In this document: one piece after another, positions 18,632 to 43,501 of the stretch | Layout: each line of letters starts with the position of its first letter | How positions within the stretch are numbered: position 1 is the stretch's first letter | DNA from: Geodermatophilus pulveris | GTDB taxonomy: Bacteria > Actinomycetota > Actinomycetes > Mycobacteriales > Geodermatophilaceae | NCBI RefSeq assembly: GCF_900188375.1 | Contig: NZ_FZOO01000006.1 | Span: 186,001-250,000, forward strand | Length of the DNA: 64,000 nucleotides | Direction of reading: 5' to 3' | Made by a program: the position numbers and the translations under genes | Notes under the pieces: model-generated | What the model saw: the letters and a program-made list of their open reading frames with translations, nothing else | Told to the model about the DNA's origin: nothing | Databases searched by the model: none

Positions 18632-18640
18632 GCGGCTGCC

Positions 18641-22668: not shown

Positions 22669-22699
22669 CCCCAGCGTCCCCGAGTCGAAGGGAACCCCG

Positions 22700-22897: not shown

Positions 22898-22903
22898 CCA
22901 CTC

Positions 22904-23368: not shown

Positions 23369-23790
23369 ACGGTCCGGTAGGGGAGCGGGGGTCGGTGTCG
23401 GTCGAGCTGGCGCTGCTGGCCCCGGCGCTGCTCCTGCTGCTGTCCTTCGCCGTTGTCGCCGGCCGTAGCCAGGTCGCCGAAGCCGCCGTCGCCGAGGCCG
23501 CTCGCGCGGCCGCCCGGGAAGCGTCCCTGTCCCGCGATCCCGCCATCGCGACGGCCTCGGCCACCGCGCAGGCGGAGCGCACCCTGGCCGCTCAGGACCT
23601 GCGATGTGAGCGCACCGCCATCGATGTCGACACCGCCGGCTTCCAGGCACCACCCGGCCAGCCCGGCGACGTCACGGTGTCGATCACGTGCGTCGTCGGC
23701 ATGGCCGACCTGCTCGCGCCCGGCCTGCCCGGATCGGTGAGCGTGGACGCGACCTTCACCAGCCCCGTCGACGCCTACCGCGAACGATGA
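23365..23790 (+). CDS. second TadE-like pseudopilin
   Basis: 141 residues from a GTG at 23365 that overlaps the preceding stop. The leader ends GERGSVSVE (G/xxxxE), then the helix LALLAPALLLLLSFAVVAGR. The segment AEAAVAEAARAAAREASLS is the usual TadE amphipathic helix, and a Cys pair sits at LRCERTAIDV and ITCVVGMADL. The end is LDAYRER-like and overlaps the next gene's ATG. Confidence 0.85.
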   Translation: MNGPVGERGSVSVELALLAPALLLLLSFAVVAGRSQVAEAAVAEAARAAAREASLSRDPAIATASATAQAERTLAAQDLRCERTAIDVDTAGFQAPPGQPGDVTVSITCVVGMADLLAPGLPGSVSVDATFTSPVDAYRER

Positions 23791-24227
23791 CCTCCCGCGA
23801 GCGCCCACAAGGCCAGGACGCCGAGCGCGGGGCCCTCGGCGTCTTCCTCACCGTCCTCGTCCCTGGGCTGCTGCTGATCATCGGCCTGGCCGTCGACGGC
23901 GGCGTGAAGGTGGCCGCCACTCAGCGCGCCAACGCCATCGCCGACGAGGCCGCCCGCGCCGGCGGCCAAGCCCTCGACGTCTCCGCCGCCCTCGCCGGGC
24001 AGGTGCTGGTGGACCCAGCGTCCGCGGTCGCCGCCGCGCAGGACTATCTCGACCGCAATGGCGTGCAGGGCGGGGTGACGGTCGTGGACGGCGACACCCT
24101 GACGGTGACCACGACGATCACTGAGCCCACCACCTTCCTCGGCCTCATCGGCATTCAGACCATGACCGTGGAGGGCTCCGGGATCGCCGACCTCATCACC
24201 GACCAGAGCGGGGGAGCGGGACCATGA
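23787..24227 (+). CDS. TadG-like pilus-assembly protein
   Basis: 146 residues. After an Arg/Gln-rich leader comes GALGVFLTVLVPGLLLIIGL, the helix, then DGGVKVAATQRANAIADEAA and RAGGQALDVSAAL, a TadG-type helix. The rest is strand-rich with VVDGDTLTVTTTITEPTTFL and GSGIADLITDQS. It is much shorter than classical TadG, which carries a vWA domain; only the N-terminal Tad segment is present. The ATG overlaps the previous stop and its own stop overlaps the LysM/BTAD ATG. Confidence 0.8.
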   Translation: MTSRERPQGQDAERGALGVFLTVLVPGLLLIIGLAVDGGVKVAATQRANAIADEAARAGGQALDVSAALAGQVLVDPASAVAAAQDYLDRNGVQGGVTVVDGDTLTVTTTITEPTTFLGLIGIQTMTVEGSGIADLITDQSGGAGP

Positions 24228-27200
24228 CCACCACACCGCGGTCGCTCGACCTGCTGCGCCGGCTGCTCGCGCTTCTGGCTCTGGTAGCTGCACTTGCTGG
24301 CGTCCCGACCGCGCTCTGGCAGCTCGGCGCCGCCTACCTGCCGACGGCACTCCCTTCATGGGAGCAGGTCACGGCTGCGTTGAGCGGGCCGGACACCGGC
24401 GCGGTCTTCCTCGGCCTGCTCGTCGTGATCGGCTGGGCCGCGTGGGCGGTGTTCGCCCTCTCGGTGGCCGTCGAGCTCGCCGCTCAGTTGCGCGGTCTCC
24501 CACCGCTACGGCTGCCCGGCCTGGCGGCACCACAGCAGCTGGCCGGCCTCCTCGTTGCCGCCGTCGTCGGCGTCGGGGGTGCGCCCCTCCTCGCCGCCCC
24601 GGCGATCGCGGGACCACCCGTGGTCGCGGAGCAGCCGACCGACGAGCCGCCACCACTACCTGCCCCATCACCGGATGCCGAGCCGGCAGAGCCTGCCGCG
24701 AACGGCCCCACCTACACCGTGCAACCGCGCGACACGCTCGGCCGTATCGCCGCCCGCTCCCTGGGGGACTGGGCGCGGTTCGAGGAGATCCTCGAGCTCA
24801 ATCGCGGTCGCACCCAGCCCGACGGCGCCGTCCTGGCCGACCCGGCGCTGATCCGCCCCGGCTGGGTCCTGGTCCTCCCAGCCGACGCCACCCCGCCCGA
24901 GGCTGGAGCAACCGCCGTTGAGGTGACGGTGCAGCCCGGCGACACCCTTGCCGACATCGCCGAGCAGCAGGGGCTGAACGGCTGGCAGCCGATCTTCGAC
25001 ATCAACGCCGGCGAACCGCTTCCCGGCGGCGGCCGGTTCACCGACCCCGACCTGATCCGCCCCGGGCAGGTCCTCGACCTCCCACCCGCCGAGCTCGCAA
25101 CCCCCGACCCGCCTCCGCCGGCCGCTCCGGAACCACCCGCCGAGGACGCGCCGCCGTCGCCGCCCCCGCCGAGTGAGGCCGAGGCGCCCATGCCGGCCGA
25201 GCCCTCGCCGACACCACCGGTCTCGCCGCCATCGGCGAGTCGTTCCGACGAACCAGCACCACCGGCAGCCGACAGCCGCGATGCCGAGGCCGACCAGTTC
25301 CCGTCGGAACTGGCGGCCGTCCTCGCCGGCAGCGGGGCGTTGCTCGCCGCTGGCACGGGTGTGGCGTGGCTGGCCCACCGCCGCCAGCGGCTGCGCCGCC
25401 GGCGTACCGGCCGACGACTGGCCCCGGTGCCGCAGGAACTGTCGGCCACGCAGACGGCCGTGACCTCGGCTGCCGACGCGGGCACGGCCGACTACGCCGC
25501 GCTTGACCTCGCTCTGCGCAGCCTCGCCGTCCGGATCTCCGACGACCCTGACGGGCGGCTGCCCGACGTCGTCGCCGCCCGCCTCCACGACGGCCGACTC
25601 GACCTCCGGCTGCACACCCCCGCCGACCGTCCGCCGCCCGAGCCGTGGACCGCCGACGACACCGGCTTGTGGTGGTCGGTACAGCTGGACCAGGACACGG
25701 GCGTCGCTCCCGAGGTGGCCCGGGCACGCCTGGCGCCCTACCCGACTCTGGTGACCATCGGCGTGAACGGCGCAGACCGCTGGCTGCTGGACCTGGAACG
25801 CCTCGGCGCCGTGTACATCACCGGACCGGCCGACCGGCGTCAGGACTTCGCCCGGCACTTGGCCGCCGAACTGGCCGTCAACAGCTGGTCGGACCTGCTG
25901 ACCATCACTCCCGTCGGCTTCGGCGACGAGCTGGTCGACCTGGCACCACACCGCATCCACCCTGTGGACACACCCGCCGACCCCGAACTTCGCTCCACCC
26001 TGTGTGAAGCAGTCGAGCGCGACTCCGACGACCTGCTGGACGGGCGGCTACGAGCCGGAGCCGGCGACGGCTGGATGCCGCACGTCGTCCTCACTCCACA
26101 CCGAGCGCGTCAGGACGACGGCGAGCTGGCCGAGGCCGCCGCCGTCCTGCGGGGCTCGGAGCAGCGCGCAGCGCTCGCACTCGTGCTCGGCGTTGAGCCG
26201 GCACAGGCCAGCGACGAGGGGCTGCTCACGCTGACCGACGACGGATCGCTGCTCGTCCCGGCACTCGGACTGCGGCTCCCCGCCCCGCAGCTGACCGCCC
26301 AACAAGCTCGCGACATCGCCACCCTCCTGTCGTTCGAGCGCGACGCGATGGACGACGCCATCCCCGCATCCGGCGGGGACCGGCCGTGGCAGGTCCACAC
26401 CGACGCCGCCGGAGCGCTGCTGGATGACGCGAAGGCGGAGGAGCCCGGCGACGCTCCGCACCGCCTGCCTCAGCCACGGCCACCCCGCCGGGCTTCTGCT
26501 GGCGGCGCCGCACTCGGGCCGGTGCCGCCGGAGGACCGCCCCAAGGGTTCGGATGGCAACGGCGTGAAGTCGCCAGGCCAGTCGCGCCCGACCGAGCTGC
26601 GTCAGCGGATCGAGGACGACCTCGAGCAGCTCGACCGTGATCTGGCGGACTGGTGGTCGTCGGACTGCGCCAGGCCCCGGCTGAGCCTCCTCGGACCGGT
26701 CACCCTGCGCGCGCATGGCGACGAGCACGCCGTCGCCAGGTCCGGGCGGCGGCGCCGCTACGAAGAGGTGGTCGCCTACCTGGCCACCCGCCCGCACGGC
26801 GCCACCGCCGACGAGGCCGCCACCGCTTTGCAGCCGGCCCGCGGCGGCAAGACCGACCCGGTCAGCGTCCGCGCCTACGTGCACCGGATGACCGCCGGTG
26901 CCCGCGCCTGGCTCGGCGACGACCCGGCGACCGGCGAGAAGCATCTAAGCTCCGGCTACCGCGGCCGTTACACGCTGACCGGCGTGCTCGTCGACGCCGA
27001 CCTCTTTCGCCAGCTGCGCGCCCGTGCCGAAGTTCGCGGCGACGACGGTCTGCCCGATCTGCTTGCCGCACTCGAGCTGGTGTCCGGACCGCCGTTCGCC
27101 CAGCGTCCCGCGGGTTACGAGTGGCTGGACGGCCTGGACCTCACGCTGACCGCGGGCATCTGCGACGTCGCCCATCAGGTCGTCACCGCTGCTCTCACTG

Positions 27201-27442
27201 GCGATGACCTGGCTGCGGCCCGCGCCGCCTCCGCAACTGCCCTTCTCGTCGCGCCGGACGACGAGAAGGTGCTGCTCGACGCGATGTGGGTCGCCTACCA
27301 CGAGGGCAGCCGCGCCGAGGCCGAAACCTACGTCGCACGCATCGTGGACATTCACGATGGCGAGGATGAGATGGACCTGCCCATGAGCACCGCGGAGGCC
27401 GTCAACCGCGCCCGCCGACAGTTCCTCGACCGAGCCTCTTAG
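24224..27442 (+). CDS. membrane protein with two LysM domains and a C-terminal BTAD-type module
   Basis: 1072 residues. Two or three membrane helices lie in residues 10-130 (LLALLALVAALAGVPTALW, FLGLLVVIGWAAWAVFAL, PQQLAGLLVAAVVGVGGAPL). Two LysM peptidoglycan-binding domains follow at about 163-218 (YTVQPRDTLGRIAARSLGD) and 232-288 (VEVTVQPGDTLADIAEQQG). A Pro-rich linker leads to a further helix (about 362-385). A cytoplasmic middle domain then leads to a C-terminal OmpR-like winged helix starting RPRLSLLGPVTLRAHGD (about 817), continuing GRRRRYEEVVAYLATRPHG, and a BTAD/TPR repeat (LLAALELVSGPPFAQRPAGY, ATALLVAPDDEKVLLDAMWV) to the stop. LysM should face the wall and the DNA-binding-like part the cytosol. 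It ends the Tad operon. Confidence 0.85.
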   Translation: MTTTPRSLDLLRRLLALLALVAALAGVPTALWQLGAAYLPTALPSWEQVTAALSGPDTGAVFLGLLVVIGWAAWAVFALSVAVELAAQLRGLPPLRLPGLAAPQQLAGLLVAAVVGVGGAPLLAAPAIAGPPVVAEQPTDEPPPLPAPSPDAEPAEPAANGPTYTVQPRDTLGRIAARSLGDWARFEEILELNRGRTQPDGAVLADPALIRPGWVLVLPADATPPEAGATAVEVTVQPGDTLADIAEQQGLNGWQPIFDINAGEPLPGGGRFTDPDLIRPGQVLDLPPAELATPDPPPPAAPEPPAEDAPPSPPPPSEAEAPMPAEPSPTPPVSPPSASRSDEPAPPAADSRDAEADQFPSELAAVLAGSGALLAAGTGVAWLAHRRQRLRRRRTGRRLAPVPQELSATQTAVTSAADAGTADYAALDLALRSLAVRISDDPDGRLPDVVAARLHDGRLDLRLHTPADRPPPEPWTADDTGLWWSVQLDQDTGVAPEVARARLAPYPTLVTIGVNGADRWLLDLERLGAVYITGPADRRQDFARHLAAELAVNSWSDLLTITPVGFGDELVDLAPHRIHPVDTPADPELRSTLCEAVERDSDDLLDGRLRAGAGDGWMPHVVLTPHRARQDDGELAEAAAVLRGSEQRAALALVLGVEPAQASDEGLLTLTDDGSLLVPALGLRLPAPQLTAQQARDIATLLSFERDAMDDAIPASGGDRPWQVHTDAAGALLDDAKAEEPGDAPHRLPQPRPPRRASAGGAALGPVPPEDRPKGSDGNGVKSPGQSRPTELRQRIEDDLEQLDRDLADWWSSDCARPRLSLLGPVTLRAHGDEHAVARSGRRRRYEEVVAYLATRPHGATADEAATALQPARGGKTDPVSVRAYVHRMTAGARAWLGDDPATGEKHLSSGYRGRYTLTGVLVDADLFRQLRARAEVRGDDGLPDLLAALELVSGPPFAQRPAGYEWLDGLDLTLTAGICDVAHQVVTAALTGDDLAAARAASATALLVAPDDEKVLLDAMWVAYHEGSRAEAETYVARIVDIHDGEDEMDLPMSTAEAVNRARRQFLDRAS

Positions 27443-28120: not shown

Positions 28121-29608
28121 GTGACCCTGAACCGGCTGTCGTCGAAAGTTGTCGATCTGTGTGAGCGGGCGGACGGAGTCGGTGACCCGGTCTTGGCCGA
28201 CCATGCCGCGCGGGTCGCCGCCACGGTGCGCGAGCCGCTCTGCCTCGCCGTCGCGGGCCGGGTCAGCTCGGGGAAGTCCACCTTGGTCAACGCTCTGCTG
28301 GGGCGGCGGGTCGCCCCCACCCGCGAGACGGAATGCACCAAGCTGGTCACCTGGTACCGCCATGGCCCGGTCGAGAAGGTGGACGTCGTCCTCCGCCGGG
28401 GCGGCACCCGCACCGTCCGGCTCACCCCGGAGGGACGCCTGCCGGAGGACGTGGGCGCGCCGACCGCCGACGTGGAGCGGCTCGAGGTCCGCCTTCCGGT
28501 GGCCGCACTGGAGAGGTTGACCATCGTCGACACCCCTGGCCTGGCCTCGGCCACCGGGGGACACAGCGCCCGCACCGAGGCCGCCCTGGGCACCGGCAGG
28601 CGCGACGACGCGGACGCCTCCATGATGGACGCGCGGTCCACCGAGGCGACCGGTCGGGCCGACGCGGTGCTGTTCGTCTTCGCCGCGTCGCTGCGGGCCG
28701 ACGAGCGGGACACGATCGGCGCCTTCCGGCGGACGACGTCGCCCGTCGGCTCGCCGTCCCCGGTGAACACCCTCGGCGTCCTGACCAAGGCCGACCTGCT
28801 CACCGATCCGGGGGACGACCCATGGCCGGTCGCCGAGCGGCTGGCCGCCGACTTCCGCACCCGTCTGGTCCACGAGGTGACCGAGGTGGTGCCGGTCAGC
28901 GGCCTCCTGGCCGAGACCGTGGCGGCCGGCGCGTTCACGGAGGCCGACGCCGACGCGCTGGACCTGCTGGCCGCGCTCGACGACCGGAGCCTGCGCCGCC
29001 TCCTGCGGACCGCGGACGCCTTCCGCACCCGCGACGTCCCCGTTTCCGGAGCCGTGCGGGCGTCCCTGCTCGCGCGGCTGTCCCTGTACGGCGTCGACAC
29101 GGCGATCGCCGCGGTCCGGGGGGGCGCGCGGACCGCGGCGGGCCTCACCGCTGTCCTGGCCGGCCGGTCCCGGCTGCAGGACGTCCGCGGCGTCGTCGAG
29201 AAGACCTTCGCGGCCCGGGCGGACGCCCTCAAGGCCTCCGCCGCCTTGGCGCGGCTCGGCCGGATGGCGTGGGACAGGTCCCTGTCCGGCGAGGGGCGCG
29301 CCTGGCTGGGGGACCAGGTCGAGCTCCTCCGCCTGGACCCGGCGATGCACGCCATCGCGGAACTGCACGCCCTGGGCGAGCTCACGGCGGGCCGCGCCCG
29401 GCTGCCCGGTGACCTGGAGGTCGAGTTCCGGAGGCTCGTGGACGCCGACCGGGAGGACGGTCCGGTGCCCAGCTCGCACGCCGAGCTGCGCGGCCTCGGG
29501 GAGCGCTTCGCCCGGTTCGCGTTCGACGCGGCCCCCGCGGACGCCCACGTCGCCAGGGTCGCCGCCCGCAGCATCCACCTCCGACGCACCGACGGGAGCA
29601 CCCGATGA
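28121..29608 (+). CDS. dynamin-like GTPase 1 (chaperone-dynamin cluster)
   Basis: 495 residues from a GTG at 28121. G1 loop G46-RVSSGKST, switch Thr region in PTRETECTKLVTW, G3 D137-TPG, G4 T222-KAD. The remaining parts are helical with few hydrophobic segments, so this is a soluble GTPase of the dynamin-related group. The insertion between G3 and G4 (GGHSARTEAALGTGRRDDAD) is longer than usual. The stop overlaps the start of the GrpE-like gene. Family members remodel or guard membranes, often as tandem pairs, and a second GTPase follows one gene downstream. A ring or filament with the second protein is plausible but inferred. Confidence 0.85.
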   Translation: MTLNRLSSKVVDLCERADGVGDPVLADHAARVAATVREPLCLAVAGRVSSGKSTLVNALLGRRVAPTRETECTKLVTWYRHGPVEKVDVVLRRGGTRTVRLTPEGRLPEDVGAPTADVERLEVRLPVAALERLTIVDTPGLASATGGHSARTEAALGTGRRDDADASMMDARSTEATGRADAVLFVFAASLRADERDTIGAFRRTTSPVGSPSPVNTLGVLTKADLLTDPGDDPWPVAERLAADFRTRLVHEVTEVVPVSGLLAETVAAGAFTEADADALDLLAALDDRSLRRLLRTADAFRTRDVPVSGAVRASLLARLSLYGVDTAIAAVRGGARTAAGLTAVLAGRSRLQDVRGVVEKTFAARADALKASAALARLGRMAWDRSLSGEGRAWLGDQVELLRLDPAMHAIAELHALGELTAGRARLPGDLEVEFRRLVDADREDGPVPSSHAELRGLGERFARFAFDAAPADAHVARVAARSIHLRRTDGSTR

Positions 29609-30195
29609 CCGCTGCGCCCGCCGGTACCGGCGCCGGGACGGCGCGTGTCCCGGTCCGGCAGGGGCTGCTCACGGCCGTGCTCGGCGTCGTCCTCGTAGCC
29701 GGGGCCGTGACCCAGACCGCGTGGTGGGTCCGGGACCTCGGCACGGGGGCGCTCGCCGCCCGGGCGGCCCTGGTCCTGGCCGCGGCCCTCGGCGGCGCCC
29801 TGCTGGCGCTGGGCCTCCGGGACGCCCTGGCCCGTCCGGCCGCGGCGCCGGCCGTCCCGCAGCCGCCGGTGCCATTGCCGGTGCCGCAGCCGGTGGTGGC
29901 GGCCCCGCAGCCGGACGACGGTCTGGTCCGCAGGGTCCTCGAGGTGCGGGACCTGCTGGACAACACGGCGCTGCGCGCCCGGCTCGACGACGGGATCCGC
30001 AGCGCCGGCTTCGAGCTGATCACGCCGGCCCCGGGCGAGCCCTTTGACCCGGGTGTCCACACCGCCGTGGACACCGAGGCGGCGACCGACGGCGCCGCCC
30101 CGGGGACCATCGCCGCGGTCGAGCAGGTCGGGCTGCTGCAGCAGGGCCGCCTCTACCGGCGCGCCGCGGTCGTCGTGTGGGAGGAGGCGCGATGA
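29605..30195 (+). CDS. membrane-anchored GrpE-like nucleotide exchange factor
   Basis: 196 residues, ATG overlapping the previous stop. Two hydrophobic helices lie at about 19-40 (LLTAVLGVVLVAGAVTQTAW) and 50-70 (AARAALVLAAALGGALLALG), then a Pro/Val-rich linker with repeated PQPxVP units. The C-terminal 90 residues match a GrpE head domain: helix VLEVRDLLDNTALRARLDDG, the GFELITPAPGEPFDPGVHTA turn, and the wing GTIAAVEQVGLLQQGRLYRR followed by AAVVVW. GrpE exchanges nucleotide on Hsp70 proteins; a vWA-Hsp70 protein is encoded 5 kb downstream. The usual GrpE long N-terminal coiled coil is replaced by membrane helices. Confidence 0.8.
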   Translation: MTAAPAGTGAGTARVPVRQGLLTAVLGVVLVAGAVTQTAWWVRDLGTGALAARAALVLAAALGGALLALGLRDALARPAAAPAVPQPPVPLPVPQPVVAAPQPDDGLVRRVLEVRDLLDNTALRARLDDGIRSAGFELITPAPGEPFDPGVHTAVDTEAATDGAAPGTIAAVEQVGLLQQGRLYRRAAVVVWEEAR

Positions 30196-32081
30196 GTGAC
30201 CCGGCCCGTGCGGCCCTCGACCGGACGATCGCCGGGGTGCGCAGCGCGGTCGCCGCCGTGGACGACCGGCTGCCGCGGGAGATCGACGAGGCCGAGGCGT
30301 CGGCGCGGGCCGCGGGGCGGACGGTCGTGGTCGTGGTCGGCGAGGTAAAACAGGGCAAGTCCTCGCTGGTGAACGCGCTCGTGGGCCGACCCGGGACCTC
30401 CCCGGTCGACGTCACCGTCACGACCTCCACCTACCTGCTGTTCCGGTCCGGTGGACCTGAGGGCGCGACCCTGCACCTCGCCGACGGCGCGCCGCCGGTC
30501 CAGGTGCCCGTCGCCGACCTGCCGGCGTGGGCCACCCCGGACGCGCCGGCCCCGGTGCGGTACGCCGAGGTCACGGTCGCCGCGCCGTGGCTCGACGACC
30601 TCGTGCTCGTCGACACCCCCGGGGCCGGCGGTCTCGTCGCGGCGCACGCGACGGCGGCGCTCGAGGCGGCCGGCCGGGCGTCGGCGCTGCTCTTCGTCAC
30701 CGACGCGCTCGCCCCGCTGTCCGGGGTGGAGCTGGACTTCCTGCGCCAGGTGTCCGAGCGCGTGGAGACGGTCGTGTTCGCGCTGACCAAAATCGGTCCG
30801 CAGCCGGGCTGGTCGGCGGTGCTGGACGAGAACAAGGCGAACCTCGCGGCGGCGGCGCCGCGCTTCGCCTCCGCTCGCTGGGTCGCCGTCGACTCCCGGC
30901 TGGCCGCGCAGGCCCTCGAGAGCCTCGACGCCCACCCCTCCGAGGTCGGCTCCGCGGCCGGCGTTCCCGACGAGGACGTGACCGACGCGCTCGAGGACTG
31001 GGAGGAGTCGGGGGTCGGCGAGCTCCTGGACGTCGTGCGCACCGAGCTGGCACCGGCGGCCGAGACGCTCGCGGCGGCGAACACCTTGCGTGCGGTCCGG
31101 TCGATCGCCGCCCGGGCCGACCGCGAGCTGGCCCTGCGGCTGGCGCAGCTGCAGGCCGACCCCGCGCTCGAGGAGGCCGTCGCCGAGCACCACCGGCGGC
31201 TGGTCGAGCTCGAGGACGAGCAGCGCACCTGGGCCCCGCGCCTGGAGAAGGACCTCAACCTGCTGCGCATCGACATCAACCGGCAGCTGGCCACCCGGGT
31301 CGACGACCAGCGGGACAGGTGGTCCGAGCGGCTGCGCACCCTGCGGCGGGCACCCGACGACGCGACCTTCGCCCGGCTCTGCGACGAGCTGCAGGGGGAC
31401 CTCGGCGTCATCGGCCGGGACGTGCTCGCACTGACCTGCACCCGCTTCCGGGCGGTCGCCGGCGAGCTGTTCGCCGAACTGGCCGACACGGCGTCGGTCG
31501 TCACGGCGCTGGACAGCCTTGGTACGGACGCCGTCCTGCCGTCCCCGAGCCGCCTCCCGCCGAACCGGTCCCACGGGGTCAAGGACACGATGGACCTCTA
31601 CTACGGGTGGCTGATGGGCAGCGGGCTCGGCGGGGGTGCCGGTGCGGCGGTGGTCGCCCTCACCGGCCTCGGGCCGCTCGGCTGGGCCCTCGGTGCGGTC
31701 GGGGGCGTCGCCGGGATCGCGCTGCGGCACTGGGTGACCCGGGACAGCGGGCGGCAGGCCGACGTCCGCGCGGCCCTCACCTCGTGGATCACCCAGGCCG
31801 AGGCCGAGATCCGCTCGGAGGTCGAGCGCAACACCGTCCAGGCGCGCTTCTCCCTGGCCGAGGCCTTCCGGGCCGCGCTGCAGCAGGCCAAGGCGGAGGC
31901 CCAGGAGTTCCTGGACGCGTCCAAGGCCGCTCGGCAGCGGTCGGCGGCCGAGCTGGCCGCACAGCGGACGGCCCTTGAGACGCAGCGCAGGACGCTGGCC
32001 AAGCACGCCGAACGGGTCGACACCCTGCTGAGGTCGCCGCTCGCCGTTCCGCCCGGGCGGCGGACGGCTGCGGTGAGGTGA
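30192..32081 (+). CDS. dynamin-like GTPase 2 with membrane hairpin
   Basis: 629 residues from the ATG at 30192, which overlaps the GrpE-like stop. G1 is G50-EVKQGKSS, G3 is D141-TPGAGG, G4 is TKIG, with the usual Asp replaced by Gly. After helical stalk regions (RLVELEDEQRTWAPRLEKDL) a Gly-rich hydrophobic hairpin (about residues 473-512, WLMGSGLGGGAGAAVVALTG and following) can enter a membrane, as in bacterial dynamin-like proteins. A coiled-coil C-terminus (EAFRAALQQAKAEAQEFLDA) follows. The stop overlaps the acidic-protein start. Confidence 0.85.
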   Translation: MSDPARAALDRTIAGVRSAVAAVDDRLPREIDEAEASARAAGRTVVVVVGEVKQGKSSLVNALVGRPGTSPVDVTVTTSTYLLFRSGGPEGATLHLADGAPPVQVPVADLPAWATPDAPAPVRYAEVTVAAPWLDDLVLVDTPGAGGLVAAHATAALEAAGRASALLFVTDALAPLSGVELDFLRQVSERVETVVFALTKIGPQPGWSAVLDENKANLAAAAPRFASARWVAVDSRLAAQALESLDAHPSEVGSAAGVPDEDVTDALEDWEESGVGELLDVVRTELAPAAETLAAANTLRAVRSIAARADRELALRLAQLQADPALEEAVAEHHRRLVELEDEQRTWAPRLEKDLNLLRIDINRQLATRVDDQRDRWSERLRTLRRAPDDATFARLCDELQGDLGVIGRDVLALTCTRFRAVAGELFAELADTASVVTALDSLGTDAVLPSPSRLPPNRSHGVKDTMDLYYGWLMGSGLGGGAGAAVVALTGLGPLGWALGAVGGVAGIALRHWVTRDSGRQADVRAALTSWITQAEAEIRSEVERNTVQARFSLAEAFRAALQQAKAEAQEFLDASKAARQRSAAELAAQRTALETQRRTLAKHAERVDTLLRSPLAVPPGRRTAAVR

Positions 32082-32620
32082 CCATGACTCCCGACCCGCC
32101 CGGCCCGGAGGACGTCCCGGACCGCACGGACGGCGGCTGGCGGCCGGACGACGGCGCCACGTCCCTCGCCGGCGAGGGCGTCGGCGGGACCCCCGACGAC
32201 CCGTACGCCCACGAGCCCGCGGACCACGGCGCGCCGGAGGCCGCAGACCCCGGCCACGGCAGCGACCACCCCTCCGACGAGGACGACGGCCCGGACGACG
32301 ACCCGGACGGGGACCCGGAGGACGACCCGGACGGGGACGAGGACGGCGACCTGGGGTCCTGGTTCGCCGGCGACTGGGTCGACCCCTCGGTGCTCCCCGG
32401 CGGGACGGACACCGACGCCGACGACGACCTCCCCGGCGACCCGGAGATCGCGCAGGTGGCCCAGCTGCTGTGGCGGCGGGCCGCTCCCGGGATGCCACCG
32501 CCGGCCGACGCCGACGACACCGGGACGCTGCTCCAGGCCGTCTCCGACCGCGGCCGGGACGACCTCGACCAGCAGGCGGCCCGCATCCTCCTCCGCATGC
32601 TTGGTGGGGCCGGCTCCTGA
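32078..32620 (+). CDS. highly acidic protein of the chaperone-dynamin cluster
   Basis: About 180 residues from a GTG at 32078 overlapping the GTPase stop (an ATG at 32084 is the other option). The first 110 residues are extremely rich in Asp, Glu, Gly and Pro (around 32268-32352 nearly every second residue is acidic). The last 70 residues form a short helical part with ending ILLRMLGGAGS. No family recognised; it resembles an acidic co-factor or regulator tail. Its stop-start coupling to the GTPase suggests a stoichiometric partner. Confidence 0.65.
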   Translation: MTMTPDPPGPEDVPDRTDGGWRPDDGATSLAGEGVGGTPDDPYAHEPADHGAPEAADPGHGSDHPSDEDDGPDDDPDGDPEDDPDGDEDGDLGSWFAGDWVDPSVLPGGTDTDADDDLPGDPEIAQVAQLLWRRAAPGMPPPADADDTGTLLQAVSDRGRDDLDQQAARILLRMLGGAGS

Positions 32621-32716: not shown

Positions 32717-34036
32717 ATGACCGGCACGGGCCAGGGGACGCCGGTCGTCGGGCGGGCCGACACCATCGCGGCGATCAGCGGCGCACTCGAGGACGCCGGG
32801 GTGCAGCTCGTGGCCGGCCCGGCGGGGATCGGCAGGACCACCGTGGCCACGGCTGCCGCGGACCGGACCGGGCGGGAGGTGTGGGCAGGAGGGGGGCTGC
32901 CCGCCCTGGCCGACCGTCCCGGCCTGGCCCTGGCGCGTGCCGTGCGGGTGCCCGTGCCCGCCGAGCCCCAGGACGCGGCCACGCTCGTCGTCGCCCTCAC
33001 CCGCGACGGGGTCCTGCTCCTCGACGACGTGCAGTGGGCCGACGCGCACTCGGTGCGGGTGACCGTGGCGTCGGCGGCGGCGGTCCGCACCCTGCTCTGC
33101 GTCACCGAGGAGGGTCACGAGGCCGGTGGGGCAGGGGACGCCGGGACGTCTGCACCGGTCGCCCGCGCAGCGGCCCGCACCACGTTCCGGCTCGCCCCCC
33201 TGGCCGACGCCAATGTCGCCGCACTCGTCCGGCGGGCCGACCCGGCGGCTCCCGAGGACGACGTGGCGCGGATCGTGGCCGCTGCCCGGGGGAACCCGGC
33301 AGCGGCCCTCGCCCTGGTCGCGGGGGACAGCCGTTCGGCCCGGCGGGCTCTCGCCGTGCGCGCCCGGGCCCTCAGCGTGGCCGGCCGTACCGCGCTCGTC
33401 GTCCTGGGGCTTCGCGGCCGCCCCACCCGCGCCGGGCGCCTCGGACCGGGCGCGGCGGAGCTGGTGGACCACGGCCTGGCCATGCCGGCGGGTCCGGGCG
33501 ACGACCCCCTCCTGGCCTTCCCCTCGGCCGCCACCTACGCCCTGGCCGGCACGCTGGCCTCCGCCGAGGCGCTCGCGGCGCTGCACCGCCACCTCGCCGC
33601 GGTCAGCCGTGACCCGTGGGACCGGGTCCGCCACCTCGCCGGGTCCGGCGATCCCGAGGGCGCCGTCGGGCTGGCGATCCGGGCCGCCCGCGAGCTCGGC
33701 GCCGGCGAGCGGGCCCGCCTCCTCGCCTTCGCCGCCGGGCTGGCCCGGGGCGAGCGCCGGCGGCAGCTCTGGCAGGCCGCGGCGGAGGCCGCCGATGCCG
33801 CCAGCGACGGCGAGGCCGCCGCCCACGCCCGCCGCCAGGCGGTGCGGGGTCGGCTCACCGACCGGGAGAGCGAGGTCATGACCCTGGTCGCGGCGGGCAT
33901 GACCACGGCTGCCGTCGCCCGCCGCCTGCTCGTCTCCGCCGAGACGGTGGAGACGCACGTCCGTTCGGCCGTCGCCAAGCTCGGCGGGCGCAACCGCACC
34001 GAGGCCGCCGTCCTGTTCGCCGCGGAGGGTCGATGA
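32717..34036 (+). CDS. short LuxR-type regulator with degenerate AAA/STAND-like P-loop
   Basis: 439 residues with GGAGGCCGGAG before the ATG at 32717. N-terminal P-loop GPAGIGRTTVAT has Arg in place of the Lys, while Walker B VLLLDDVQWAD is complete. The C-terminal 60 residues are a LuxR helix-turn-helix (LTDRESEVMTLVAAGMTTAA, VARRLLVSAETVETHVRSAV). LAL-type regulators are usually about 900 residues with a TPR middle; this one has only a short alanine/arginine-rich helical middle. It is separated from the upstream operon by 96 bp and overlaps the next gene. Confidence 0.8.
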   Translation: MTGTGQGTPVVGRADTIAAISGALEDAGVQLVAGPAGIGRTTVATAAADRTGREVWAGGGLPALADRPGLALARAVRVPVPAEPQDAATLVVALTRDGVLLLDDVQWADAHSVRVTVASAAAVRTLLCVTEEGHEAGGAGDAGTSAPVARAAARTTFRLAPLADANVAALVRRADPAAPEDDVARIVAAARGNPAAALALVAGDSRSARRALAVRARALSVAGRTALVVLGLRGRPTRAGRLGPGAAELVDHGLAMPAGPGDDPLLAFPSAATYALAGTLASAEALAALHRHLAAVSRDPWDRVRHLAGSGDPEGAVGLAIRAARELGAGERARLLAFAAGLARGERRRQLWQAAAEAADAASDGEAAAHARRQAVRGRLTDRESEVMTLVAAGMTTAAVARRLLVSAETVETHVRSAVAKLGGRNRTEAAVLFAAEGR

Positions 34037-35273: not shown

Positions 35274-35477
35274 CGGGGTCCTCCCGTGCGCTGGGGCGCG
35301 CGGCCCGGGGCGAACCGGACCGGGTGCGCGCCCGTCGTGAGGCGGGGAGGGGACGTTACTGCTGGTGAGCGGTGCCAGGCCGGTTCCGCGCAGCCCGGCG
35401 CGCGGGACACCGCCGGACCGGATCGGGGCCTACCATCCCGCGTCATCCTGCGACACGCCGGCCGGACGGGGGCGCCG

Positions 35478-37241
35478 ATGGACCAGCGGTCACCTGGAGG
35501 TCGCCCGGGCGCGCCTCTGCACCTCATCTGGCTGGTGGACTGTTCCGGCTCCATGCAGCTGGACGGGAGGCTGCGAGCCGTCGACGGCGCCATCCGCGAC
35601 GCCCTCCTGCACTGCGCGAGCATCGTCTCCCGCGATCCGCGGATCCGTGTCCTCATCCGCGCGCTCACCTTCTCCTCCGGCGCGCGGTGGCACGTCGCGC
35701 AGCCCGTGCCGGTGGAGGACCTCACCTGGCCCGCCCTGCCCCCGGCCGGCGGTTACACCGACCTGGGCGCGGCGCTGCGCGAGGTGTCGGGTGCGCTGGG
35801 CGCGCTGCCGGAGGACCCGACCGCCCTGCCGCCCGTCCTCGTCCTCGTCTCCGACGGAGAGCCGACCGACGAATACCAGATCGGCCTCCAGGTCCTGGCC
35901 TCGGCACCGTGGGGAGCCCGGGCGCAGCGGTTCGCCGTGGGCATCGGTCCGGACGCCGACCTCGCCGTCCTGCAGGAGTTCCTCGGCCGGCCGGACGCCC
36001 GCCCCGTGCATGTCGCCCGGCCGGACCACCTCGCCGAGGTGCTCCGCGCCGTCTGGAGCGGGGCTCACCAGGCAGCGGCGGCGCGGGTGGGCCCCGCGGT
36101 CGCACGCCCAGCGGGTCCACCGCGCTCCGATCCGGTGAACGGGATCCGGCCCGTCCGGTGGGAGCGGGGGACACCGGAGCGGGCCCGGGCCGGACCGTCG
36201 GCCGCCATCGACTTCGGCACCACGTACACCTCGGCCGCCGTGCGGGACGCCGCAGGCACGGTGACCACCATCGCCTTCGACAGCGGCCACACCCGGTACC
36301 CCTCCGGGGTGCTGCGGCAGCCCGGCGGGTCGTTGCTGGTCGCTACCCAGGCCGAGGCCCAGGCGGCCATGCACCCGCACGCCTTCGAGCCCACCCCGAA
36401 GCGGCTCGTCGGCCACGAGACCGTCGTCCTCGGTGGCGAGGAGATGGCCGTGGTGGACCTGGTCGCCGCCGTCCTGCGGCACGCCGCCGACGAGGTCCAC
36501 CGGCAGCACGGACGCGGTCTGCCGGTGGTGCTCACCCATCCCGCCGACTGGCGCGGGGCACGGCTGGGGATGCTCGTCGATGCGGCCGGGCGCGCCGGCC
36601 TGGGCGAGGTCACGCTCGTCCCCGAACCGGTCGCCGCGGCCGCTGCCTACACCTCGGGCGACTCGGTCGCGGTCGGGGCGCTGGCCGCCGTCTACGACCT
36701 GGGAGGGGGCACGTTCGACGCCGCCGTCGTCGAGCGCACCGACGACGGCTGGCGGCTGGCGGGGCCACCGGCCGGCATTGACCCGCTCGGCGGCGTCGAC
36801 TTCGACCGCCTCCTGCTCGACCACCTCGGGGACGTCGTGGCCGACCGCAAGCCGGAGGTCTGGGCCAAGCTGGACGACCCGCCCGACATGGCCTGGCGGC
36901 GCCACCGGCGGGAGCTGCAGCGCGAGGTCCGTGCGGCCAAGGAGGCGCTCTCCGCCCATCCGGCCTGGACGGTGTACGTACCCGGCGCCGAGGAATCGGT
37001 CACCGTCACGGCCGAGGACTTGGAGCGGCTCATCGGCCCGCTGGTCGACCGCAGCGTCGAGCTCATGGTGGCCACCATCGCCGAGGCCGGGTGCACGCCC
37101 CGCGACCTGCATGCCCTCTACCTCACTGGCGGGTCCTCGCGGATCCCGCTGGTGCACCGCCGGCTCTGGGACGCGCTCGACACCGAACCACGCACCCGTG
37201 CCGACCCCAAGCTCGTCGTCGTGACCGGGGCGCTCGGTTGA
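35478..37241 (+). CDS. vWA-Hsp70 fusion protein without substrate-binding domain
   Basis: 587 residues from the ATG at 35478. Residues 14-200 are a von Willebrand A domain with the complete MIDAS start D21-C-S23-G-S25, plus GGYTDLGAALREV and LVLVSDGEPTDE. A linker leads to an Hsp70 ATPase domain from about residue 240 (AIDFGTTYTSAAVRDAAGTV). It has the connecting THPADWRGARLGML region, the second phosphate loop VYDLGGGTFDAAVVE and adenosine motif LYLTGGSSRIPLVHRRL. The protein ends right after the ATPase, so the substrate-binding and lid domains of DnaK are absent. The vWA domain may supply target binding. Likely partner of the upstream GrpE-like protein. Confidence 0.87.
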   Translation: MDQRSPGGRPGAPLHLIWLVDCSGSMQLDGRLRAVDGAIRDALLHCASIVSRDPRIRVLIRALTFSSGARWHVAQPVPVEDLTWPALPPAGGYTDLGAALREVSGALGALPEDPTALPPVLVLVSDGEPTDEYQIGLQVLASAPWGARAQRFAVGIGPDADLAVLQEFLGRPDARPVHVARPDHLAEVLRAVWSGAHQAAAARVGPAVARPAGPPRSDPVNGIRPVRWERGTPERARAGPSAAIDFGTTYTSAAVRDAAGTVTTIAFDSGHTRYPSGVLRQPGGSLLVATQAEAQAAMHPHAFEPTPKRLVGHETVVLGGEEMAVVDLVAAVLRHAADEVHRQHGRGLPVVLTHPADWRGARLGMLVDAAGRAGLGEVTLVPEPVAAAAAYTSGDSVAVGALAAVYDLGGGTFDAAVVERTDDGWRLAGPPAGIDPLGGVDFDRLLLDHLGDVVADRKPEVWAKLDDPPDMAWRRHRRELQREVRAAKEALSAHPAWTVYVPGAEESVTVTAEDLERLIGPLVDRSVELMVATIAEAGCTPRDLHALYLTGGSSRIPLVHRRLWDALDTEPRTRADPKLVVVTGALG

Positions 37242-37338: not shown

Positions 37339-38415
37339 ATGACGACGCCCACGGACGCCCGCGACGTGCTGACCGAGTGGGTGCGCCGGTGCGGGCCCTC
37401 CTTCCTCGACCAGCCCCGGCGCGTGCGGGCCGTCCTGCACGACGCCGTCCCCTCCGCGTCTCACCAGACGGCACTGCTGTCGGCGGCCCTCGAGCACGGC
37501 GTGGCCCGGCGCGTCCTCGACACGCCGCCCGATCGGCTGACCGGCGAGCTCGATCGGCTGACCGCGGAGCTGGTCGAGCGGCGTGGCCTGACGCGGCTGG
37601 ACGCGGCATGGGCGGTGGGCACCGTGGCAGCGGCGCTCGGAGCGTCGAGCGGCCAGGAATCACCGGGGCCCGGAGCGGGTCATCCCTCCTCGGGGCACCC
37701 CGGCCGACCACCGTCTCCTCCGCCGGGCACCGGGACGCCGGCCGGCCGGTCGGTGCGGCGCAAGTGGTGGCTCATCGGTGCGGCGGCCCCGGTCGTGCTG
37801 GTGTCGGTCGTCCTGGGCGTCATGCGCACGATCCCCCAGCCCGACCCGCCACCCGAAGACGTGACGGGCACCGAGACCGGCAGCGGCACCGGTAGCGGCA
37901 CCGGCACCGGCACCGGCTCGGGCAGCGACACCGGGACCGGCAGCGGCTCGGGCAGCGGCACCGGGACCGGCAGTGGTGGGGGTGACGACCCCTGTGCCCT
38001 GCTCACCAGCAGCGAGTGCGCAATCTGGGAGGAGCTGCCCGGCGACCTGTACGCGCAGTGCAGCGGGATCAACCCGGTGCCGCCGGCCACGGCCGGGCTG
38101 GGCTGCGTCGTCCCCGGCACGTACCGGACGGGGGAGAACTACAGCCGGGACCTGGCGGTCTACGAGTACGCGGACACGTTGGACCGTGACGCAGCCGTCC
38201 AGGGGCTCGGCCAGAACCCGTGCGACACGTTCACCATCAAGAGCACTGCCGGTGCCGTGACCGACACCGGCACCCTCTACTGCTTCCCCGACCAGGACGG
38301 GATGGCCCTCCTCGTCTGGACGTACGACTCGAAGCCCTACGAGGTCTGGGCCAAGGGTGTGAACCAGGACGTCGAGGGCCTCGTCAACTGGTTCTTCACC
38401 ATCCCGCATCCCTGA
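37339..38415 (+). CDS. single-pass membrane protein with Gly/Thr/Ser repeat linker, cluster end
   Basis: 358 residues with an ATG at 37339. N-terminal helical cytosolic part (VLTEWVRRCGPSFLDQPRR, DAAWAVGTVAAALGAS) of about 105 residues resembles effector-like helical domains of chaperone clusters; a Pro-rich linker and one membrane helix (LIGAAAPVVLVSVVLGVM, about 153-170) follow. Then comes a low-complexity run of GTGS-type units (about residues 176-215), and a secreted 140-residue domain with Cys in DPCALLTSSECAIWEEL, YAQCSGINP, GLGCVVPG, QNPCDTFTI and LYCFPDQDG. It follows the vWA-Hsp70 gene by 97 bp. Function unknown; a surface sensor is one option. Confidence 0.7.
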   Translation: MTTPTDARDVLTEWVRRCGPSFLDQPRRVRAVLHDAVPSASHQTALLSAALEHGVARRVLDTPPDRLTGELDRLTAELVERRGLTRLDAAWAVGTVAAALGASSGQESPGPGAGHPSSGHPGRPPSPPPGTGTPAGRSVRRKWWLIGAAAPVVLVSVVLGVMRTIPQPDPPPEDVTGTETGSGTGSGTGTGTGSGSDTGTGSGSGSGTGTGSGGGDDPCALLTSSECAIWEELPGDLYAQCSGINPVPPATAGLGCVVPGTYRTGENYSRDLAVYEYADTLDRDAAVQGLGQNPCDTFTIKSTAGAVTDTGTLYCFPDQDGMALLVWTYDSKPYEVWAKGVNQDVEGLVNWFFTIPHP

Positions 38416-38688: not shown

Positions 38689-39198
38689 TCAGCTCGCGTC
38701 ACCGTCCGCTGCTCCCGGCTGCCCGCCCCGGTGCACCGGATCGGCGGGATCGGCGGCGGTGCTGGCCGCGAGCTCGCTGCGCAGCTCCACGAGCAGCAGA
38801 CCCAGCACGTTCGCTCCCGTCCCGCGGGGCCCCCGCCCCCAGAAGGAGTCGCGCGGGCTGGCCTCGACCAGCCGGGCGTCGCCCGTGCCCACGAGTAGGA
38901 CGCCGAGTGCGGGGTGCTGGGTGAACTTGGCGCGCAGCGCCGTCCGCATGACGTCGACGCGGACCGACATCCAGTCCCGGCGCACGTGCCGGTGCAGCTG
39001 CCGGGCGAGATCGAGGGCTGCGCGAGGGCTGGGGCAGGTGCGGATCCGCTCGCGCAGCCCGGCATCGGCGAACTTCGCCGCCTGGAAGTAGTGCTCGGTC
39101 GTCGGCCACCGGAGCCCCTCGATCAGGACCGGGAAGGGCGCGAAGTTGGTGAACTCGAAGAACTCCTCGTCGGGCGCGAAGAAGCGCAGCTCGTCCAC
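38689..39198 (-). CDS. NADAR-family protein (YbiA-like N-glycosidase)
   Basis: 169 residues from a GTG at 39196-39198, preceded by AGGAGGTGACGAC. The family core is plain: DEEFFEFTNFAPFPVLIEGL, WPTTEHYFQAAKF, and the C-terminal SFWGRGPRGTGANVLGLLL. NADAR domains act on ADP-ribose-linked substrates, known from a riboflavin-pathway enzyme and from guanine-ADP-ribosyl removal in toxin-antitoxin pairs. I see no DarT-like partner next to it, so a housekeeping role and an orphan antitoxin both remain possible. The tail is Ala/Asp-rich. Confidence 0.88.
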   Translation of the reverse strand: MDELRFFAPDEEFFEFTNFAPFPVLIEGLRWPTTEHYFQAAKFADAGLRERIRTCPSPRAALDLARQLHRHVRRDWMSVRVDVMRTALRAKFTQHPALGVLLVGTGDARLVEASPRDSFWGRGPRGTGANVLGLLLVELRSELAASTAADPADPVHRGGQPGAADGDAS

Positions 39199-40156: not shown

Positions 40157-41878
40157 ATGAGCCTGCACGACCCGCTGGGTCTGGACGACTCGGCGTCTCA
40201 GGACGACGGCACCCTGCAGTCGTCGGACCGGATCACCGTTTCGTCGTTCGGAGGCGACGGCGCCTTCGACACGGGTCTCCCGGACCTCGACGACACCGGG
40301 GTCGTCGACCCCGCGACGGGGGAGCCCACGGTGGACGCCGGCCCGGAGCCGTCGGACGGAGGCCTGCCCGGGTTCGACGACGTCGACCCCGCGTCGGTGG
40401 ACTTCCCGCTGGTGGACCCGGCGTCGGTCATCGTGGACCCGGCGGCCGTCGTCGTCGGCGAACCGGCCGAGGACGCGGAGTACTGGCTGTACCAGGGGGA
40501 CGGCCAGGGCACCTGCGCTCCGACGGCCGTCGCCATGGTGATCGCCGACGTGCTGGACGATCCGCTCGTCACCAACGAGGTCGTGCTCCAGCGGGCCCTC
40601 GAGCTGGGCCTGATCACCCACGACCCGGCCGCCGACGGCGATGCCGGGACCGACTCGGCCGGTGACTGGTCGGGGATCGACAACACCGGGATGATGGTGC
40701 TCTGCGAGGAGTTCGGCCTCGACGTGAGCTCGTCGTTCGGGGACACGAACCAGCTGATCGACTCCCTGGACAGCGGCCGGGCGGTCATGGTGGGCCTGGA
40801 TGCCCACGAGATCTGGTACGGCGAGGACGACGCCGGCGACCAGGGCTACGACGACAACCACGCCGTCGTGGTCACCGGCATAGACCTGACCAACGGCCTG
40901 GTGTACCTCAACGACCCCGGCACCCCGGAGGGCCGGGGTGCGGTCGTGCCGCTGGCGCAGTTCGAGGACGCCTGGGCCGATGCCGCCAACCAGATGATCT
41001 TCACCGACGTCACCGAGGACCAGGCAGCGGCCACCGTCGACCTGGGCGGTGCGCCGGTGGAGGTCCCGTCGGGAACCGGGCCCGAGGTGTACCCGGACGC
41101 GGCGGGTGCCGGCCTGGCGGCCGCGCCGGCCGACCGACCGTCGCTCGTGCCCGAGGACGCCACCGGCCTGGTCGTGCTGCCGTTCACCTTCGTGCCGCAG
41201 GTCGCCGACGTGGTCTCGGCGGACCAGAGGGGCACGAGCGAACCGGATCGGAGAGGTGCCGGCGGGTTCGACGCGAACGCCGACGGCATCCCCGACCCGA
41301 CCCTCATGGACATGACCGGGGAGGGGTTGGACGACAGCGTCGGACTCGACTCCGACCAGAACGGCATCTTCGAGGTCTTCGCCACGGACCTAAACCACGA
41401 CAGCATGATCGAGGCAGTAGCCATCGATCAGGATCAGAACGGTGTCCCAGAGGTTTTCATGGCGGATCAGAACCGTGACGGCAGTCTCGAGACGACGGCG
41501 GTCGATCCGAATCAGGACGGTGTGCTCGATTCCGCCTCCTCGCTGTACGGGACCTACGGCAATCCCAATGGTCCGGCAGGCGGGATCGAGGTGACCGCCA
41601 ACCCGGACGGCTCCAGCAACATCAACATCGGCCCGGCCGACAGTGGGCTGAGCCCCGCTGGGGGGTACGGCCCACCGCTGGGATTCGGTACACCGGTCGG
41701 TCCAGGTGCCTCCGAGCCGTACGACTACAGCTCCTACGACCGGGACAGCGACGGCGACCGCATTCCCGACGCCCGGGACCCGCAGCCCACGGCTCCGTAC
41801 GCGTCCCAGTCGATGGACCAGGACGGCGACCGCATTCCCGACGCATCCGACCACAACCCGACGTCCTACGGGTCCTGA
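40157..41878 (+). CDS. C39-like cysteine peptidase with Ca-binding-type repeats
   Basis: 573 residues from the ATG at 40157 with AGAGGAGACG upstream. No signal peptide is visible; the first 100 residues are acidic and repetitive (PGFDDVDPASVDFPLVDPAS). The papain-like core is visible: C120 in GDGQGTCAPTAVAMV, H235 in DDNHAVVVTGID, N252/D253 in VYLNDPGTPE. After about residue 370 there are Asp/Asn-rich repeats (LDSDQNGIFEVFATDLNHD, IDQDQNGVPEVFMADQNRD). Near the C-terminus two thrombospondin-3-type units occur (DSDGDRIPDARDPQP and DQDGDRIPDASDHNP). The repeats should bind calcium. Secreted by an unclear route, or intracellular. Confidence 0.82.
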   Translation: MSLHDPLGLDDSASQDDGTLQSSDRITVSSFGGDGAFDTGLPDLDDTGVVDPATGEPTVDAGPEPSDGGLPGFDDVDPASVDFPLVDPASVIVDPAAVVVGEPAEDAEYWLYQGDGQGTCAPTAVAMVIADVLDDPLVTNEVVLQRALELGLITHDPAADGDAGTDSAGDWSGIDNTGMMVLCEEFGLDVSSSFGDTNQLIDSLDSGRAVMVGLDAHEIWYGEDDAGDQGYDDNHAVVVTGIDLTNGLVYLNDPGTPEGRGAVVPLAQFEDAWADAANQMIFTDVTEDQAAATVDLGGAPVEVPSGTGPEVYPDAAGAGLAAAPADRPSLVPEDATGLVVLPFTFVPQVADVVSADQRGTSEPDRRGAGGFDANADGIPDPTLMDMTGEGLDDSVGLDSDQNGIFEVFATDLNHDSMIEAVAIDQDQNGVPEVFMADQNRDGSLETTAVDPNQDGVLDSASSLYGTYGNPNGPAGGIEVTANPDGSSNINIGPADSGLSPAGGYGPPLGFGTPVGPGASEPYDYSSYDRDSDGDRIPDARDPQPTAPYASQSMDQDGDRIPDASDHNPTSYGS

Positions 41879-43398: not shown

Positions 43399-43418
43399 CA
43401 ACATTCCCCGTGGTTCGG

Positions 43419-43501
43419 TGGGCGTGGCAGGAATCGAACCTGCTAAGCGCGAGGCACCGGGTTTACAGCCCGGCCCGACTCTCCATCGTCGGCGCACGCC
43501 C
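43419..43501 (-). tRNA. tRNA-Tyr (anticodon GTA)
   Basis: 83-base class II tRNA on the minus strand. Acceptor arms GGGCGTG and CACGCCC pair perfectly over 7 bp, discriminator A. The anticodon stem CCGGG/CCCGG holds loop CTGTAAA (anticodon GTA). The T-arm GCAGG-TTCGATT-CCTGC is perfect and the variable arm is 13 bases long. D-arm CCGA/TCGG encloses CGATGGAGAG. It lies directly next to an IS fragment, with the conjugation locus starting 2.2 kb away; it is a candidate integration site. Confidence 0.85.

Follow-up and report, generated by a model that had tools for sequence, protein, structure and literature searches.

In a 64,000-nucleotide stretch of the Geodermatophilus pulveris genome (contig NZ_FZOO01000006.1, positions 186,001 to 250,000; hereafter the window, numbered from its first letter), we examined a gene on the plus strand at 35478–37241 that encodes a fusion of a von Willebrand factor A (vWA) domain with an Hsp70 ATPase (P0001). 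The open frame of 587 amino acids starts with a TerY-P type vWA domain (residues 1–213, 35478–36116) with a complete metal ion-dependent adhesion site (MIDAS; D21-x-S23-x-S25, T94 and D126), continues through a linker (residues 214–240, 36117–36197), in which W228 is an apparent relic of a vWA C-terminal motif, and ends with an Hsp70 nucleotide-binding domain (NBD; residues 241–587, 36198–37241, stop codon at 37239–37241), which has all catalytic residues and neither interdomain linker nor substrate-binding domain (SBD). An earlier note on this DNA had described a vWA domain fused to an Hsp70 ATPase, and this description holds, both domains lying in one frame and each being supported by sequence and by structural model.

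For the fusion protein taken alone, the Pfam VWA profile PF00092 gives an E-value of 0.002 (18.8 bits), below the curated cut-off of 23.8. PF00092 and PF13519 match all 34 aligned vWA sequences, the part from the fusion included, at E ≤ 0.01. The vWA domain modelled by itself has a mean predicted local distance difference test score (pLDDT) of 89.4 and a predicted template modelling score of 0.87, and its best match among solved vWA domains (4fx5) reaches Z 21.1 with a root-mean-square deviation of 2.1 over 171 aligned residues, the 50 matches listed spanning Z 18.5–21.1. Because of these family-wide profile matches and fold matches, the vWA assignment is firm despite the Pfam score under the cut-off. 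The MIDAS residues D21, S23 and S25, which the earlier note had read as intact, are indeed invariant in the 34 aligned sequences, as is D126, and T94, which with D126 completes the set, is found in at least 90% of them. The TerY model of PADLOC matches 21 of the 34 aligned members, and the vWA domain of the fusion weakly (E 0.0069); in a separate PADLOC scan, the fusion protein gave only one weak row (E 0.039).

The relatives of this domain belong to TerY-P triads, composed, according to the excerpts at hand of the CoCoNuTs paper (PMC11090510), of a TerY-like vWA protein, a PP2C phosphatase and a Ser/Thr kinase. The vWA domain of the fusion shares 40–56% identity with stand-alone TerY-P vWA proteins. 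Among 112 Geodermatophilaceae genomes, counting its own, a search turned up a single close relative (in G315, 55%), and among 396 genomes of the phylum three others gave vWA matches. A scan of about 85,000 species yielded 190 relatives, from which the best 80, spread over many phyla, were examined with their loci (L064–L143). These 80 are all stand-alone open reading frames of 233–327 codons from stop to stop; 78 of them have a PP2C gene, and 60 a TerY-P kinase, no more than 6 kb away, counts that are limited by contigs ending early at some loci. None has an Hsp70 match beside it (E ≤ 1e-4; 0/80). As far as sequence can tell, the vWA domain of the fusion comes from the TerY-P triad adaptor family.

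A further feature of these relatives is their C-terminus. The last residue is Trp in 80 of 80, with Asp at position −3 in 74 and Val or Ile at position −2 in 79, and the tail reads mostly (A/D)DVW, an acidic–aromatic sequence. Two other triad vWA proteins share this ending (DDVW in G461, DEVW in G597); less closely related vWA proteins in G597 and G514 have a different one (DFGA). Tails of this DVW type are reminiscent of known docking tails, for example the one of SSB, and may be the peptide by which these proteins dock to the kinase or the phosphatase. The Blastococcus vWA protein, the nearest of the triad relatives, has 231 residues and ends RLPVTW followed by its stop codon, near the position that matches W228 of the fusion (context IRPVRW), where the NBD starts about 14 residues later. 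As a separate observation, the Blastococcus vWA–PP2C–kinase triad (L051:2-12024) adjoins genes that by eye look like type VII secretion genes, namely an FtsK/EccC-like ATPase and WXG100-like small proteins.

At the junction, codons 229–254 hold no ATG, GTG or TTG, and so there is none between W228 and D245; a GTG at codon 220 sits upstream of W228, and a separate NBD translated from there would need an overlapping start. The position of W228, together with the lack of a start codon in 229–254, indicates that the fusion was made directly behind the old vWA C-terminus, and the formerly free tail of the vWA protein is now internal. That the join falls exactly where vWA proteins usually stop, in an assembly of 26 contigs, is also what would be expected if sequencing or assembly had lost a stop codon between two genes. 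We consider such an artefact very improbable, since the stretch from W228 to D245 offers no start for separate translation of the NBD, and since the frame and the high third-position GC run on through the linker (0.80, compared with 0.91 for the vWA part, 0.93 for the NBD and 0.92 for the whole, the vWA and NBD values resembling those of neighbouring genes). In the full-length model, residues 196–236 have pLDDT below 50 and no predicted structure, and the two domains are tethered by about 40 disordered residues on the N-terminal side of the NBD. The vWA part of that model is poor, as its alignment contained no vWA relatives, and for this reason the domain was modelled alone.

The ATPase half is recognized by the Pfam HSP70 profile at residues 318–585 (profile positions 103–368 of 599, E 5e-31), and the model of residues 237–587 aligns with DnaK 1–377 at Z 42.0 over 339 aligned positions. 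The closest solved structure by sequence is DnaK 2v7y (E 3e-28), and the closest by fold are DnaK models and crystals, at Z of about 42. D245, K308, E383, D407 and T412 are retained, in agreement with the earlier reading that the Hsp70 nucleotide motifs are all present, and the corresponding D, K, E, D and T columns are invariant among 36 NBDs aligned nearly end to end. The same reading had the protein stop right after the ATPase, and so it does: the alignment with DnaK sets the domain end, and the last NBD helix (577–586) ends the frame. The fusion is devoid of the DVLLLD interdomain linker that the DnaK of the same genome carries. An SBD overlooked in another frame or downstream, which had been set in advance as the finding that would overturn the claim, did not emerge from the six frames of the 14 kb between 30001 and 44000, where the SBD of the organism's own DnaK gave a best E-value of 0.26 over 11 residues; as a positive control, the DnaK query finds the fusion gene at 3e-20. 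In the genome itself (4.38 Mb, 26 contigs), the only other Hsp70-family match at E ≤ 0.001 is a normal DnaK.

The nearest NBDs, with identities of up to 51%, are those of non-DnaK Hsp70s of the order. Among 44 Hsp70 loci, five hold a DnaK with an SBD and 39 a non-DnaK protein without SBD match (E ≤ 1e-3), and a vWA match (E ≤ 0.1) is found in none of the 44. All 39 non-DnaK proteins carry 44–500 residues behind the NBD (two frames are cut by the locus end), and a Pfam scan of 29 of them recognized beta-propellers in four, a protein kinase in one and VWA in none. Judging by this company, the NBD of the fusion belongs to an Hsp70 branch that pairs the ATPase with other modules; apart from the fusion, no Hsp70 examined has a vWA domain and none ends with its NBD. 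The best NBD match is in G122, where two tandem NBD-first Hsp70s stand beside a dynamin–GrpE–dynamin cluster of the kind described below and a C39-like protein. We also noted, in G182 (L054:9149-11240, plus strand), a frame cut by the contig end in which a Ser/Thr kinase is fused to the N-terminal side of an Hsp70 NBD, an arrangement like that of the fusion but with a different signalling module. At the J-contact positions, which in the organism's own DnaK are R144, N147 and T150 and which we take to be equivalent to E. coli R167, N170 and T173, the fusion has T379, P382 and V385, and the Asn and Thr of the last two positions occur in none of the 36 aligned NBDs.

These results bear on the proposal, made in the earlier note, that the vWA domain is the client-binding part of the protein. 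The proposal stands in so far as the vWA domain is the only obvious partner-binding module of the fusion. It does not stand as far as the vWA domain was seen as a substitute for a lost SBD, for absence of an SBD is the rule in the non-DnaK relatives (39 of 39), and the vWA domain therefore did not replace one. In Hsp70 proteins the client domain is driven by way of a linker that follows the C-terminus of the NBD; with the vWA domain at the opposite end of the NBD, on a disordered tether, client release by SBD-like allostery is unlikely. A true client-binder, in which the MIDAS would hold a client peptide or acidic residue and the NBD would drive its release, could nonetheless draw on the intact MIDAS, on an NBD that looks catalytically able, and on a precedent, since vWA domains are peptide-binding co-chaperones of MoxR ATPases according to the portions at hand of Kaur et al. 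2020 (PMC7159879). Against it stand, besides the position and tether of the vWA domain, the two J-contact positions changed in 36 of 36 aligned NBDs, the absence of an SBD without any vWA domain in 39 of 39 relatives and the signalling role of the vWA relatives, and we consider it unlikely. Given the derivation of the domain from TerY-P signalling triads, the term adaptor, or partner-docking part, fits it better than client-binding part.

A search for other vWA–Hsp70 fusions, also suggested in the earlier note, was carried out in overlapping sets of sequences. It brought up no second fusion in the order (297 other genomes, four candidates scored in each, from a match list of limited length sorted by E-value), in 111 other genomes of the family, in 107 other relatives (at most 12 candidates each), in 395 other genomes of the phylum at E ≤ 1e-62 (matches of full-length grade, three candidates each), or among the 80 vWA relatives and the 29 SBD-less Hsp70s scanned in Pfam. 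Among 72,556 plasmid records, 1157 gave some match and none a match with 80% coverage of the fusion, and a whole-protein pattern scan of genome contigs with the fusion protein gave no match, although such peptide-pattern scans, of which the one for vWA relatives retained the best 80 of 190, could miss a strongly diverged fusion. So far, a single genome is known to carry the fusion. Its vWA domain has also diverged, deviating at 26 of 86 family-conserved columns (≥ 90% conserved), with the MIDAS untouched and with family-conserved residues such as R12, M112, R115 and W191 replaced; 33 relatives, which were picked by similarity and so bias the comparison towards the fusion looking more deviant, deviate at no more than 9 of 87 columns (median 4; Blastococcus protein, 7 of 86).

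Immediately downstream of the fusion, a gene at 37339–38415 (plus strand) encodes a predicted membrane protein, of which the N-terminal part of about 100 residues also occurs in TerY-P loci: it shares 46% identity over 98 residues with a gene of the Blastococcus TerY-P locus, and homologues of it are found in 6 of the 80 TerY-P loci, Blastococcus included. The gene may be a remnant of the ancestral triad locus from which the vWA domain also came. As for the other triad members, tblastn against the window with two triad PP2Cs gave no match at E ≤ 1, and with the triad kinase a best E-value of 0.04, at chance level; the kinase-like match of 52 residues with this E-value, on the minus strand at 35309–35464 just upstream of the fusion, was taken as chance. 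In the whole genome, one triad kinase query found only a generic 104-residue match (E 6.6e-8), and one PP2C query, run without a positive control, no match.

Two rival explanations draw on this part of the evidence. The first holds that the fusion is recent and decaying, in that kinase and phosphatase disappeared from the triad and the remaining vWA gene was joined to a neighbouring Hsp70 gene. It would account for the restriction to one genome, with no counterpart in the order and family sets given above or, at full-length scores, in the phylum set, for the off-consensus vWA domain, and for a locus where a triad-associated gene is left at 37339 and neither triad kinase nor PP2C turned up, whether in the window or in the genome (one query for each). 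On the other side, the 1761 coding bases free of stop codons, a coding-like third-position GC and a MIDAS and NBD active site kept in full amount to more constraint than decay leaves, and we regard decay as improbable. According to the second, the vWA domain still serves a phosphorylation switch of the TerY-P kind, with kinase and phosphatase encoded elsewhere and the NBD as an added regulator. Its vWA ancestry and the retained neighbour at 37339 speak for this, and the poor yield of the genome-wide kinase query and of the single, uncontrolled PP2C query, a Trp tail that is free in 80 of 80 relatives and internal here, and the replacement of family-conserved residues such as those named above speak against it; we hold this explanation to be highly unlikely.

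Upstream of the fusion, the plus strand carries a block of genes centred on two dynamin-like GTPases. The first (28121–29608) has a Dynamin_N domain (E 6e-14) and matches IniA at 2.6e-6; the second, IniA-like (30192–32081), has Dynamin_N at 6.5e-13, with a start 15 bases upstream, and matches IniA at 2.1e-15. Matches of the dynamins to the PADLOC LeoA and LeoBC models (5e-10 and 1.6e-20) were taken as dynamin-family similarity. Between the two, at 29605–30195, lies a gene for a predicted membrane protein. Its sequence has a hydrophobic stretch beginning near residue 50 and a C-terminal GrpE domain (residues 125–191); the protein has the C-terminal beta domain of GrpE as judged by PF01025 (36.8 bits, above the cut-off of 25.8) and by a match to the E. 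coli GrpE of 1dkg (1.3e-4), and is a candidate nucleotide exchange factor. The block ends with an acid-rich, disordered-looking protein (32084–32620) without Pfam or NCBIfam family, in which one may, speculatively, see a MIDAS ligand. Then follow an AAA-like protein with a LuxR-type regulator part (32717–34036; GerE E 1.5e-15), tied to the fusion by position only, and, still upstream of the fusion, a small protein that matches a helix-turn-helix model weakly.

In order to place this trio among its homologues, dynamin 1 was searched in 298 genomes, 137 of which gave a match at E ≤ 1e-25, and one locus of 16–20 kb was taken from each other genus with a best match at E ≤ 2e-57 (n = 29). Dynamin 2 is present in all 29, and a GrpE-domain gene lies between the dynamins, in the same order, in 27 of them, from as many genera of the order (the trio loci being, besides 28121–32081 of the window, L052, L146–L163, L165, L246 and L248–L253). 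By eye, FDPxxHEA or a near form is kept in all 20 GrpE-domain genes compared; the strict form DPxxHx(A/V) is found in 17 of the 20 (in one of them through a hit elsewhere in the frame), and the other three have FD(T/A)xxHEA. A vWA domain occurs in none of the 29 loci, and a non-DnaK Hsp70 NBD on the same 16–20 kb in 10. A first, partly hand-picked set of 20 loci had given 9 with an NBD and the eight genera then passed over gave none, and it is the count over all 29 genera, 10 of 29, that is used here. Compared with a chance expectation that we estimate at about one in fifty, from a handful of NBDs in several Mb, this indicates that the link between NBD and trio is real but optional.

Further genes of the window were noted in passing. 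A C39-peptidase-like protein (40157–41878; PF13529, 7.5e-9) has a 55% homologue (over 199 residues) beside the trio in L052 and weak matches beside it in L150 and L159, and is a possible further member of the cluster. A NADAR-domain protein is encoded on the minus strand at 38689–39198 (PF08719, 1.4e-34). At 24224–27442 lies a gene for a 1072-residue protein with two LysM matches and, by eye, a transcriptional-activator-like C-terminal part, preceded at 18071–24227 by genes that by eye resemble those of a Tad/Flp pilus or secretion system, with a T2SSE ATPase at 19509–20855. Beyond a tRNA-Tyr gene (43417–43501, minus strand), genes that look conjugation-like by eye extend to 58247 and include a TraG/TraD-like coupling protein (53559–55469), perhaps as part of an integrated conjugative element.

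Taking domains and neighbourhood together, we tentatively favour the reading that the fusion may be a chimera working as an adaptor-switch, one that is recruited to the membrane, acts on the two dynamins and has the GrpE-like protein for its exchange factor, and that it would be no folding chaperone. The NBD would serve as a slow ATP/ADP switch that works without a J-protein. The membrane GrpE-domain protein (29605–30195) would bind the NBD and exchange its nucleotide, bringing the chimera to the membrane, where the MIDAS of the vWA domain would grip an acidic residue of a partner from the same locus, the candidates being one of the dynamins, the acid-rich protein 32084–32620 or the membrane protein 37339–38415. 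The chimera would in this way act as a gate for the assembly of the two dynamins at the membrane, at a step for which a TerY-P triad would use its kinase and phosphatase. We prefer this adaptor-switch because the vWA domain was an adaptor before the fusion, because a client domain is missing from such NBDs in any case, and because the join is at the NBD end that known Hsp70s do not couple to clients.

Several points weigh against it. Nineteen of the 29 dynamin loci have no nearby NBD, which means that the trio can do without one close by, and the Hsp70 that the GrpE domain serves may be a different one, such as DnaK. The fusion starts 3.4 kb past dynamin 2, and in between lie the gene for the acid-rich protein, two genes of regulator-like type and an open reading frame on the minus strand, so that co-transcription is no more than a possibility, and no sigma-70-like promoter or terminator-like site was found. 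Finally, as the 111 other genomes of the family contain no orthologous fusion, its conservation is unusable as support.

The fusion suggests a new wiring of known switch parts. A broader and rather doubtful extension would take it as a 'Rosetta stone', implying that one and the same partner step is the target of the TerY-P vWA adaptor and of the SBD-less Hsp70 from dynamin–GrpE clusters, that a common logic of membrane defence or membrane repair uses TerY-P signalling, SBD-less Hsp70s and dynamin pairs as parts that can stand in for each other, and that the (D)VW tail is a docking peptide of TerY-P vWA proteins which covalent fusion makes needless here. If true, this would provide a partner hypothesis for TerY-P triads and for many SBD-less actinobacterial Hsp70s, two widespread and poorly understood gene sets, an Hsp70 ATPase could act as the nucleotide switch of a bacterial dynamin pair by way of a membrane GrpE domain, and attention would be drawn to a short, testable C-terminal Trp motif in TerY-P systems.

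The open-licence literature searched holds no description of a vWA–Hsp70 fusion or of a dynamin–GrpE–dynamin trio, nor do the portions at hand of PMC8195603 and PMC7824862, and the fusion is best compared with several known systems part by part. With DnaK it shares the NBD fold and the catalytic residues, and it differs in the missing interdomain linker and SBD, the changed J-contact positions and the extra vWA domain. The actinobacterial SBD-less Hsp70s are closer, having the same kind of NBD, no detectable SBD and changed J-contact positions; in the fusion, however, the additional module is N-terminal and a vWA domain (0 of 29 in the others), and nothing follows the NBD, where the others have their 44–500 residues. 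The two adjacent dynamin-like genes recall bacterial dynamin pairs such as mycobacterial IniA/IniC (PMC6715688) and Campylobacter DLP1/2 (PMC6104087), as far as the available parts of these articles describe them, and the second of the genes is the one with the stronger IniA match. In contrast, the dynamins of the present locus are separated by a GrpE-domain gene and have an Hsp70 NBD in their vicinity, and a term search for GrpE found no mention in the text at hand of either article.

The TerY-P triad is the source of the closest vWA relatives, of the same protein family and up to 56% identical, with the vWA protein of the Blastococcus triad as the nearest, and some triad loci share the N-terminal domain of the protein at 37339. 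The fusion locus differs from these triads in that no PP2C or triad kinase was found there, in that the vWA domain is fused to an NBD, as in none of the 80 relatives, and in that the Trp is internal. The GTPase-centred systems with GAP1-N2, for which a search of the genome with one presumed GAP1-N2 query (a neighbour in G461) gave no match, without a positive control, fall into three non-overlapping themes in the sections at hand of Kaur et al. 2020 (PMC7159879). One of these combines HSP70 and GrpE, sometimes with an Hsp70 domain that lacks the peptide-binding part, and the third combines a kinase, a PP2C and a stand-alone vWA protein. As far as these sections describe them, such systems resemble the present locus in that an SBD-less Hsp70 is encoded close to GTPases and a GrpE-domain protein, whereas here the GTPases are dynamin-like, and modules of two separate themes are fused in one protein.

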